A stretch of DNA of 32,583 bases from Candidatus Faecicola pullistercoris (GTDB lineage: Bacteria > Bacillota > Clostridia > Christensenellales > CAG-917), in NCBI GenBank assembly GCA_018714105.1, contig DVNW01000017.1, forward strand, positions 1 to 32,583, read 5' to 3'. Numbering within the stretch: the stretch's first letter is position 1; every line of letters starts with the position of its first letter. The notes under the pieces are model-generated. The model was not told where the DNA came from. It made no database searches and was given only the letters and a program-made list of their open reading frames with translations. Below are positions 22,273-24,932 of this stretch, piece after piece. The position numbers and the translations under genes are program-made.

Positions 22273-22300
22273 AAAAAGCCGATGAAATCATCGGCTTTTT
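22273..22300. terminator. Bidirectional terminator between ftsY and DivIVA-like gene
   Basis: AAAAAGCCGAT (22273-22283) pairs perfectly with ATCGGCTTTTT (22290-22300) around 6 nt. Symmetric A- and T-runs allow use from both directions, ending ftsY and the minus-strand gene at 22318. Confidence 0.9.
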
Positions 22301-22317: not shown

Positions 22318-22935
22318 TTATAATCCTTTTAACGCATTTTCGAGTTCAGCAACGGGCTCGGCTTCGCTTTCCTGCGCGGCTTTGGATTCGAGATTGTTTT
22401 TAAGAGTTTTAATTAGCGAGTGAAGTTCGTCTTCGTCCGTTTGCAGCCGTTTGCTTTCTTCCTTGAACTGGCTTTCGGGCCCTCCGGCTCCGGGGGTCAG
22501 TTTTATGCCGAAATCCTTATTCAGTTTGCGTTCGAGTTCGAGAGAGGTCTGCGTTATAACGGCCTCCATGTTAAGCGCGTCCTTTTCGAAACCGTATCGC
22601 TGTTTGAGTACGTCGTACGCTTCCGTCCACTTAGCCTGAAAAAGTTTTAATCTTTCTATTTCCATGGCGTATTGCAATTTGAGTTCGGTTTCGATTTCGT
22701 CGGCTTTTTCTGCCGCTACTATCAGTACGTCCTGAACCGATTGTTCCCGTTCCCGGTAAGAGTCGATAGTCTGTTGTTTTCTGCCTAATTCGTCAACGAG
22801 ACTTTCTATTCTGGCGCGCTGTTCTTCCATACGGGATTCCGCATATTCTTTTTGTCTTTTGACGTACTCGTCCGTGCTGCGCGCCGTATATCCGAAGCCT
22901 TTTTTAAGAACGCCTTCCGTCGTTTTTCTTTTCAT
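22318..22935 (-). CDS. DivIVA-like coiled-coil protein
   Basis: The 205-residue protein has a short N-terminal segment G-F-G-Y-T-A-R-S-T-D-E-Y-V resembling the DivIVA membrane-binding start. A coiled coil (about 25-120) follows that includes S-Y-R-E-R-E-Q-S-V-Q-D-V-L-I-V-A-A-E-K-A-D-E-I, close in pattern to the second DivIVA block. A linker P-G-A-G-G-P-E and another helical stretch come next, and the C-terminus is acidic. DivIVA-type scaffolds bind curved membrane at poles or septa and recruit partners for division, wall growth or chromosome anchoring. AAGGAG lies about 10 nt before the ATG. It may be the last gene of the 24876-22318 transcript or have its own promoter; a TATAAT occurs upstream without a convincing -35. 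Confidence 0.7.
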   Translation of the reverse strand: MKRKTTEGVLKKGFGYTARSTDEYVKRQKEYAESRMEEQRARIESLVDELGRKQQTIDSYREREQSVQDVLIVAAEKADEIETELKLQYAMEIERLKLFQAKWTEAYDVLKQRYGFEKDALNMEAVITQTSLELERKLNKDFGIKLTPGAGGPESQFKEESKRLQTDEDELHSLIKTLKNNLESKAAQESEAEPVAELENALKGL

Positions 22936-23019: not shown

Positions 23020-24021
23020 TCATAAACAGTCGCTTACGTCCACGTTGTATATTTTATCGTCTTTGAGACTGAACTTGATTTTCCTGCAAACGAAAACGCC
23101 GCGCCGCGCAGTTACGTTTTCGGTATAAATTACCTTGCTGAATCCGCTGTCCGAATCCTGACAGCTGAAATCGGTAAACGGGCCTATGAACTCTCTGAGA
23201 GCGAGTATGCGGTCTTTGAGGTCGTCGCTCAGATAAGTTCTGGCCAGGTCGTAATCGTCCGTCTGCATAGCTTCCATAAAAAGGCAGGGGAGCAGGGCAA
23301 GAGGATAAGAAATCAGATGATTATAGCGGTAAGTTTTTTCGCATTCGCAGAAAGCGTCGTTTTCGTAACGGAATTTGCGTGTGATTTCGCGGCCGAGCAT
23401 ATCGGGCTTTTTATCGGTGACGAAAAAACCGTCCTCGGCAAAAGACAGCCCGTCGCAGAGCCTTTCGAATACCGTGCGGTAGAGCCCGTCGTATAGTATT
23501 ATCAAGAGGTATTTCTTGCCCTGCGCGTTGCCCGTTACGGTTATAAGCAGGCCCGCTCCGCTTGCCCGCGAAGCTATTTCGGCGTCGGTAAGCCTGCAGT
23601 TGAGATCTTTGGTGAAAACCTCGCCTTCGCTTTCAATCATGATTCTGGCCGCGCAATCCGTATATACGGTTACGGTGTGCGGCGAATTTCTGTAATAGGC
23701 TTTTTGCTGGGCAAGAGCTACGGGCGAGCGGTAATCGTCTACGGTTTCCGCAACGTATCTTATTTCGTAAAAATCATCGCGGACAACGGCTATAAGACCG
23801 CCGAACAGCCTGATGCCGTTATCTACGGCGATTATGCCGTTTACGGGAAGCAAATGTCTGCCGAAGGGCAAATCGGCGGGCGGCTTGTCCGAAAAAATCC
23901 GTACGTAAAAGAAATCGCCGTCGGCGCCCGTAAGCATTACGGGGGATTGTGACGAAGTATAATATTTTCCGTTTATCACGGCAACGTCGCCGTTTTGTAC
24001 AGTAAAAGAAAAGACCGACAT
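23020..24021 (-). CDS. Hypothetical protein, unrecognised
   Basis: The 333-residue protein has no signal peptide and no membrane segment, so it is probably cytoplasmic. It appears beta-rich in the first 200 residues and helical at about 230-280 (L-A-L-L-P-C-L-F-M-E-A-M, then Y-L-S-D-D-L-K-D-R-I-L-A-L-R-E-F). It returns to beta strands at the end, finishing K-I-Y-N-V-D-V-S-D-C-L. No catalytic motif is recognised. AAGAGGTG fits the ATG at 24021. The gene lies 54 nt behind a lipoprotein gene on the same strand, and its start codon is buried in a 12-bp hairpin (24010-24054). I cannot assign a function. Confidence 0.7.
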   Translation of the reverse strand: MSVFSFTVQNGDVAVINGKYYTSSQSPVMLTGADGDFFYVRIFSDKPPADLPFGRHLLPVNGIIAVDNGIRLFGGLIAVVRDDFYEIRYVAETVDDYRSPVALAQQKAYYRNSPHTVTVYTDCAARIMIESEGEVFTKDLNCRLTDAEIASRASGAGLLITVTGNAQGKKYLLIILYDGLYRTVFERLCDGLSFAEDGFFVTDKKPDMLGREITRKFRYENDAFCECEKTYRYNHLISYPLALLPCLFMEAMQTDDYDLARTYLSDDLKDRILALREFIGPFTDFSCQDSDSGFSKVIYTENVTARRGVFVCRKIKFSLKDDKIYNVDVSDCL

Positions 24022-24054
24022 CGTTTCACCTCTTTAAAGGTTATGCCGGTCTTT
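24010..24054 (-). promoter_or_regulatory. 12-bp hairpin holding the start codon of the 24021 gene, RBS in loop
   Basis: In the minus-strand RNA, bases 24054-24043 (AAAGACCGGCAT) pair with 24021-24010 (ATGTCGGTCTTT) in 12 consecutive pairs, one of them G-U. The second arm is the first four codons of the 23020-24021 gene. The 21-nt loop contains its AAGAGGTG ribosome-binding site. A T-rich run (TTCTTTTA) follows the second arm, so the same element could act as an intrinsic terminator for the upstream lipoprotein gene. Sequence and pairing are certain; the regulatory role is inferred. Confidence 0.6.
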
Positions 24055-24075
24055 TAAAAAATATAAGCGGTTTTA

Positions 24076-24876
24076 TTATTTTGTGAGGGAAATGTTTTTA
24101 AGCGTGTACGTTACGTCGCCTTCCACGAATTTCACAAGCGCGTTAATAACGCTTTTGCCATCCACGGTAAATGCGGTGCTCGCGTAAAAAGTGGTGAACG
24201 GCGAACCTGTCAGCTTTTCGTCGCGTGATACCGTCATGGAGTAGCAGGCGACAGGCGTTTCGGAATAAGGACAGCTTACCTGCACCGAAGCTCCCGCCGC
24301 GCATTTAAGAGCGACAGCCTGTTTCTCGGCGGGTATCATGGCTTTGTAGGTAAAGTTTGCGCTGCCCGTAGCGCGCATAAGGATGTAAATCTGACTGTTG
24401 TCGTAGTAAGGAGTGGAAAGTTTAACGTCCGTAAAATCCTCTCCGCCGTCAGAGAATCTGGCAACGCCGTCCTTATAGTTTACCGTGGTAACCGTAGTAA
24501 CTCCGTTGCGAGTAACGCTGCGAGCGGACAGGACGGGCGTAAGGTTCTGACTTTGGTTTATCGCGCCGAACAACAGCTCTTCACGAATCACGGTGTCGCC
24601 TATTTCGAGACGGCTTTCGTAATAATGTCCGCTGGCCTTTTGAAGCTTGATGCCGCCGATTTCGACGTCGGTGCTTCTGATTATGCTTATTTCGGCGGTA
24701 AACGTGCCTTTTTCGTCCGAGTCGGCTACCGTTACGTCATACTCGAACCTTTCATAATCCTTCCATACGGCGCTCACGGTGGTGTAGAAGGGCTGATTGT
24801 TGCAGGCCGTAAACGACGCCGCGGTAAGAGTAAGCGTTAAAACCAGAATTATTGCGGTAAAGACTTTTCTTTTCAT
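24076..24876 (-). CDS. Secreted lipoprotein of unknown function
   Basis: The 266-residue precursor has a basic start M-K-R-K, a hydrophobic stretch (about 8-22) and the lipobox S-F-T-A-C, so it should be cleaved before Cys25, lipidated and anchored on the outside of the membrane. The mature part is Thr/Val/Ser-rich and beta-stranded, with many alternating strands and only a few lysine/tyrosine-rich turns. I do not recognise the domain; no enzyme motif is seen. CGAGGT supports the ATG and a good promoter lies at 24904-24932. It probably forms an operon with the 23020-24021 gene. Confidence 0.75.
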   Translation of the reverse strand: MKRKVFTAIILVLTLTLTAASFTACNNQPFYTTVSAVWKDYERFEYDVTVADSDEKGTFTAEISIIRSTDVEIGGIKLQKASGHYYESRLEIGDTVIREELLFGAINQSQNLTPVLSARSVTRNGVTTVTTVNYKDGVARFSDGGEDFTDVKLSTPYYDNSQIYILMRATGSANFTYKAMIPAEKQAVALKCAAGASVQVSCPYSETPVACYSMTVSRDEKLTGSPFTTFYASTAFTVDGKSVINALVKFVEGDVTYTLKNISLTK

Positions 24877-24903: not shown

Positions 24904-24932
24904 ATTATAACAAATAGCTTGATATTTATCAA
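24904..24932 (-). promoter_or_regulatory. Promoter of lipoprotein operon
   Basis: On the minus strand TTGATA (24932-24927) and a perfect TATAAT (24909-24904) are 17 nt apart, with the -10 box about 27 nt before the start codon. Confidence 0.65.

Follow-up and report, generated by a model that had tools for sequence, protein, structure and literature searches.

A terminator-like hairpin over a start codon and a sigma-E-like promoter motif as a candidate read-through lock in Candidatus Faecicola pullistercoris

Results

Genes and hairpin at the locus

We analyzed positions 1 to 32,583 of contig DVNW01000017.1 from Candidatus Faecicola pullistercoris (genome G000), a stretch of 32,583 nucleotides that we call the window. 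The gene under study lies on the minus strand (23020-24021) and encodes a 333-aa protein of unassigned function. Within the order, 154 of 396 genomes carried a homologue, and no Pfam family matched the protein at E values up to 1. A predicted lipoprotein gene lies upstream on the same strand (24076-24876), with a gap of 54 nt between the two genes. The lipoprotein has a lipobox-like FTACN, read by eye, and its Pfam search returned a single weak, unconvincing match. Ahead of the lipoprotein gene we observed a promoter motif of the vegetative, sigma-A type (TTGATA-17-TATAAT, 11/12 matches; 24904-24932, minus strand).

The 333-aa gene adjoins a DivIVA-like gene (22318-22935, minus strand; Pfam DivIVA E = 3e-4, under the cut-off of that family). 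In three members of the window's own family (L003, L004 and L005), a DivIVA-like gene that is similar by eye lies upstream of the homologue, not downstream. A symmetrical hairpin (AAAAAGCCGATGATTTCATCGGCTTTTT, 22273-22300) separates the DivIVA-like gene from an ftsY-like gene and is likely a two-way terminator of these convergent genes.

Between the lipoprotein gene and the 333-aa gene, the minus strand is predicted to fold into a hairpin at 24055-24009. Thirteen consecutive pairs, one of them G-U, join AAAAGACCGGCAU (24055-24043) to AUGUCGGUCUUUU (24021-24009). The stem has 5 G-C pairs, a computed energy of -18.8 kcal/mol and the tail CUUUUACU. A 65-nt fold at the hairpin reached -19.3 kcal/mol compared to a shuffle mean of -9.0 (z = -3.6; equalled by 2 of 200 shuffles). 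The initial annotation had described a 12-bp hairpin with the start codon in the 3' arm, the ribosome-binding site in the loop and a T-rich run behind the stem. The computed fold bears out the hairpin, its coordinates and these three placements, with 13 pairs instead of twelve.

The 5' arm (24043-24055, minus strand) doubles as the spacer and the first three -10 bases of an inner promoter motif. The 21-nt loop (24022-24042, minus strand) contains an inner 5-bp stem and the Shine-Dalgarno (SD) sequence AGAGGTG (24033-24027). The 3' arm (24009-24021, minus strand) spans the beginning of the 333-aa gene, from its start codon through codons 2-4 to one base of codon 5. It is followed, downstream of the stem's own UUUU, by the U-rich tail CUUUUACUG (24000-24008, minus strand), which covers codons 5-8.

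The 5' arm begins at stop+21 of the lipoprotein gene, whose stop codon ends 20 nt ahead of the hairpin. Like an intrinsic (Rho-independent) terminator, the element is a stable, G-C-containing stem that comes after a stop codon and is followed at once by a U-run. It differs from such a terminator in that the 21-nt loop holds an SD sequence, and the coding sequence of the downstream gene supplies both the 3' arm and the U-run. Loops of 3-5 nt were found in 34 of 40 after-stop stems of the window genome. We regard a short loop as typical of terminators, not as defining them. Because the 21-nt loop is unlike those of the other terminators of the genome, termination here may be weak.

Frequency of comparable stems

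Our scan covered 382.9 kb, comprising the window and 20 further stretches of its genome, with 315 crudely called genes. Of the 93 terminator-like stems of at least 10 pairs, none but the hairpin at 24055-24009 overlapped a predicted start codon. Shuffled 382.9-kb sets (8 sets, both strands together) contained 0 or 1 stem of at least 13 pairs per set. From this rate, we estimated post hoc that about 0.02 start-overlapping stems of such length would be expected in the sample. A scan of 307 genes gave 31 stems of at least 8 pairs near the SD sequence or the start codon. Four of these had at least 5 T in the tail, and the hairpin was the strongest of the four. These data agree with the initial annotation that pairing of this length across a start codon is unlikely to arise by chance.

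The hairpin came up while 32 kb were being read, strong stems occur elsewhere too (some within ORFs), and conservation of the pairing does not extend to distant relatives, as shown below. These points would fit a chance hairpin without function. Its uniqueness among the 315 crude genes and the yield of the shuffled sets argue against chance, as does its location at the position where relatives have their terminator. We consider a chance origin very improbable.

Comparison with related genomes

We compared 31 lipoprotein-homologue pairs, 25 from 52 distinct homologue loci and 6 from 17 further loci (L136 repeats L036 and was left out of the count). A separate terminator was found past the lipoprotein stop in 23 of the 25 pairs, at stop+3 to +50, and in all six of the others. 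The resulting 29 of 31 pairs are non-independent, since 28 of the 31 come from family f5, two from f7 and one is the window, and some are near duplicates of each other. No lipoprotein gene preceded the homologue at the four loci examined in the window's own family (L002-L005).

The two pairs that lack a separate terminator are the window and L039, from genome G379. Strong start-overlapping hairpins were found among the 31 pairs only in the window (about -19 kcal/mol) and in L039 (about -25 kcal/mol). By random draw, the two exceptions would coincide with the two hairpins 1 time in 465, a figure for a coincidence that was spotted afterwards. Weaker start-overlapping stems stood alongside a separate terminator in L055 (-7.5), L139 (-8.3) and L140 (-7.6). 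The L039 stem runs from AUCCGUCGUAUUU to AUGGCGGAU and is followed by UUUUUAUUUU; a 93-nt fold reached -26.6 kcal/mol (equalled by 4 of 200 shuffles). The lipoprotein-homologue gap in L039 was 67 nt, compared to 77-151 nt in its twelve genus mates. The shorter gap suggests that the old separate terminator was lost in this lineage, and G379 is a second case, probably convergent with the window.

The window hairpin very probably acts as the terminator of the lipoprotein gene, as the initial annotation had proposed, because 29 of 31 pairs have their terminator at this position.

In 49 homologue loci, we then assessed how far the start region pairs with sequence upstream of it. The mean was 0.34, compared to 0.31 in shuffles, and p was ≤0.05 in just 8 of the 49 loci; we rejected start-codon hiding as a general feature of the homologues. 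The initial annotation had named orthologues that keep the protein and lose the pairing of the upstream arm as evidence against its proposal, and the distant relatives are of this kind. The window had the strongest start-region pairing of the 49 loci (0.96; 0 of 100 shuffles), and L039 was next in significance (p = 0.01). No genus mate or close relative of the window genome was found among 38 stretches from a contig search with the 333-aa protein, a search whose scope possibly excluded very near genomes.

The terminator position, the lack of conserved start-codon pairing and an intergenic gap of just 54 nt would also fit a simpler explanation. In a compact genome, the lipoprotein terminator may have shifted until it overlapped the beginning of the gene behind it, with start hiding as a by-product without a role. 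The small loops of most other after-stop terminators of the genome speak against this explanation. So does the finding of hairpins across promoter motif, SD sequence and start codon in two distant lineages (the window and G379). A similar hairpin over the sigG SD sequence, described below for the window genome and six of eleven others, also argues against it. We judge a role in termination only to be unlikely.

A sigma-E-like promoter motif

By eye, we read a motif common to the DNA ahead of the homologues, TCATAT-N15-CATAnnnT, using 49 of the 52 loci (L010, L014 and L067 were dropped because the start was unclear or too near an end). We take this motif to be sigma-E-like, with consensus letters that come partly from our reading of these loci. 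A score of at least 9 of 11 was reached in 36 of the 49 loci, a result that is partly circular because the motif was read from the same loci. Independent support came from 9 homologue loci added afterwards, all of which reached this score, compared to 33 of 900 shuffles; only 6 of 305 other genes in the window genome did so. Among spoIVA loci of the order, 16 of 20 reached it, compared to 70 of 2000 shuffles (the spoIVA start could be placed in 20 of the 31 loci given). The spoIVA gene of the window genome itself scored only 8, and 70 of the 305 other genes scored as high or better. According to PMC517825, spoIVA is under sigma-E control in B. subtilis, and sigma-E elements have an 8-nt -35, a spacing of 12 plus or minus 1 nt and a 10-nt -10. 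We judged the spacing of our motif compatible with that report. It is possible that sigma-K instead of sigma-E stands behind the motif.

In the window, the -35 is TTATAT (24061-24066, minus strand; 5/6 matches to TCATAT) and the -10 is CATAACCT (24038-24045, minus strand; 5/5 fixed positions of CATAnnnT), with a spacer of 15. This sigma-E-type pair of elements at the fixed spacing, TTATAT-N15-CATAACCT (24066-24038), lies 16 nt from the ATG and scored 10 of 11 (14 of 5000 shuffles were as good). The initial annotation had missed the promoter motif inside the hairpin. The strict form TNATAT-N15-CATAnnnT occurred 7 times in the genome, compared to 4 for the reversed control.

The distance between the best match and the start codon varied among the 49 homologue loci. 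It was 14-18 nt in 20 loci and 5 nt in 12, which leaves no room for an SD sequence; in the remaining 17 the match lay elsewhere. At a distance of 5 nt from the end of the -10 match to the start, sporulation mRNAs would be leaderless (L006, L009, L011, L012, L013, L015, L016, L048, L052, L054, L059 and L060).

Sigma-A motifs had a different distribution. Scores of at least 10 of 12 were found at 22 of 24 lipoprotein starts (24 of the 25 pairs; L016 was omitted because it had too little upstream sequence), compared to 1 of 49 homologue loci, 0 of 20 spoIVA loci and 53 of 305 other genes. The window genome contains sigE (TIGR02835, above cut-off; G000:C1:64628-65326) and spoIVA (above the curated cut-off). 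A sigE search of 20 genomes, including 14 homologue carriers, gave 13 strong matches; G331 had no strong match (best E = 7.7e-21). We observed spoIVA in 145 of 154 homologue carriers compared to 189 of 242 non-carriers, as raw counts that ignore kinship. This table was read by eye, with both draws of 396 genomes taken as the same genomes, and 9 of the 154 carriers were not in the spoIVA list.

The promoter motif also bears on a regulated attenuator, which the initial annotation had implied. The lipoprotein gene and the 333-aa gene would then form an operon; opening of the hairpin, whether by a ribosome, a ligand or a protein, would allow the second gene to be transcribed and translated. The 54-nt distance between the genes is in favor of such an arrangement. 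In addition, the SD sequence would emerge from the polymerase ahead of the 3' arm, which could let an early-binding ribosome keep the stem from forming. An attenuator is at odds with a promoter-like motif that belongs to the 333-aa gene itself and lies inside the hairpin, and with the relatives, which insulate the two genes by a plain terminator instead of joining them. An Rfam search of the window at gathering scores likewise gave no match, be it to a riboswitch or to another known cis-regulatory RNA. An attenuator is in our judgment quite improbable.

Predicted RNAs from the two promoters

The start of the 333-aa gene's own mRNA is expected at 24030-24033 (minus strand) from the position of the -10. 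Because the -10 begins in the 5' arm, this transcript, starting near 24031, cannot contain that arm. By motif position, this second promoter is thus placed to yield an RNA that lacks the 5' arm, with the start deduced from the -10. In that case, only read-through RNA from the vegetative promoter of the lipoprotein gene would be subject to the hairpin.

We computed the accessibility of the start region in both RNAs. In read-through RNA the helix hid the start, with an unpaired probability of 0.13 for the start codon and 0.01-0.02 for codons 2-4. The corresponding values in RNA from 24031 were 0.41 and 0.56. Within the SD region, the bases AGGTGAA (24031-24025) were unpaired at 0.42 in the own RNA compared to 0.43 in read-through RNA. 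This unchanged accessibility suggests that the start codon would be released, and not the whole initiation region. We also found a weak sigma-A-like site just ahead of the hairpin (CTCACA-16-TATATT; 24060-24087, minus strand), which would start RNA near 24053. Such RNA would retain most of the hairpin, and its start codon was computed to be unpaired at 0.13.

The initial annotation had the hairpin block translation of the next gene. The computed folds support this for read-through RNA. A general block is unsupported, because the sporulation-type promoter motif lies inside the hairpin and the own transcript should lack the 5' arm.

Related hairpins

The closest known kind that we found is the read-through hairpin of B. 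subtilis sigG. In PMC5942855, a hairpin of at least 20 pairs is proposed to block translation of spoIIG read-through RNA, and it cannot form in RNA from the sporulation promoter of sigG itself. The window hairpin is like this one in that it would form only in read-through RNA and is proposed to block translation. Compared to the sigG hairpin as described there, the window stem adds a U-run and occupies the place of a terminator. The promoter in the window is sigma-E-like, whereas that of sigG is of the sigma-F/sigma-G type. The gene in the window is an unassigned 333-aa gene, and the gene upstream of it has a sigma-A-type promoter.

In PMC3014915 and PMC2988022, the T4 genes e and I-TevI have the ribosome-binding site or start codon in a helix of the early RNA. 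Their late promoters are placed so that the 5' part is missing from late transcripts, which are translated. These accounts also list soc among further T4 genes whose start sites are concealed. The window resembles e and I-TevI in that promoter placement would remove the 5' part of the helix. In contrast, T4 uses phage late promoters, and its hairpin is not described as a terminator in the passages cited. The union of such a lock and a terminator in front of a gene of the sigma-E type may be new relative to the sigG and T4 cases as described in these accounts; our search covered the open-licence literature, and an earlier report in print is possible.

We also assessed sigE-sigG junctions within the order. 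At the junction of the window genome (L132:3334-3366, G000:C1), AAATTCCTCT...GGAGGAATTT forms 10 pairs that cover the sigG SD sequence. A -10-like CATAATTT lies in the loop, and the tail is T-rich (TTTATAT). We tried 16 junctions and could place the sigG start in 12. Besides the window genome, a stem over the sigG SD sequence followed by T was found in G001, G003 and G007. The SD sequence was paired without a T tail in G006, G298 and G379, and the stem was absent from the predicted fold in G005, G008, G009, G048 and G076.

A further strong hairpin was observed over the start codon of murB (L078:10536-11372, minus strand), which follows an hprK-like gene; both names were read from the translation. 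The hairpin (-21.1) is formed by AGCTTTTTCGGCATAT...ATGGTCGAAAAGGTT, has a -10-like CATATATT/TATTAT inside and lacks a T-run.

Discussion

Our data suggest that the hairpin may be a read-through lock with a sporulation promoter at its core. The element would combine a vegetative terminator with a translation block, and the inner promoter would bypass both. We assign this reading a probability of roughly 0.6. The sequence itself shows the stem and its U-tail, the start codon in the stem, and the sigma-E-like and sigma-A motifs in a genome with sigE and spoIVA. Counting against the reading are the poor conservation of the pairing among distant homologues, the long loop, the modest match of the window's motif when taken alone, the slight excess of the strict motif over its reversed control, the low score of this genome's own spoIVA and the G331 carrier with its missing strong sigE match.

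In growing cells, RNA polymerase would arrive from the sigma-A promoter of the lipoprotein gene, and the emerging hairpin would terminate most transcripts at the U-run. In transcripts that escape, the first four codons of the 333-aa gene, start codon included, would stay locked in the stem. During sporulation, sigma-E RNA polymerase would use the -35 just upstream of the hairpin and the -10 in its 5' arm and loop. The resulting transcript would begin in the loop at about 24031 without the 5' arm and could be translated. As a result, the 333-aa gene would be off during growth and its product made only during spore formation.

More tentatively, the arrangement may be a double lock that recurs across the order, a proposal that we hold to be possible but somewhat doubtful. 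The promoter, ribosome-binding site and start codon of a spore gene would lie in one U-run stem after a gene of different timing. Read-through RNA would be both terminated and untranslatable, and the gene's own RNA, with its short leader, would escape. Such locks would have emerged on more than one occasion, each taking the place of a separate terminator, as in the window and G379, with a relative at the sigE-sigG junction.

If the read-through lock is real, a compact sporulating genome would silence a spore gene during growth despite transcription of the gene that precedes it. One short DNA stretch would serve as terminator, translation lock and promoter. A sporulation -10 within a start-codon hairpin would provide a search rule for more such locks. 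An uncharacterized family that is carried by more than a third of the genomes surveyed in the order (154/396) would be tied to the mother-cell program.
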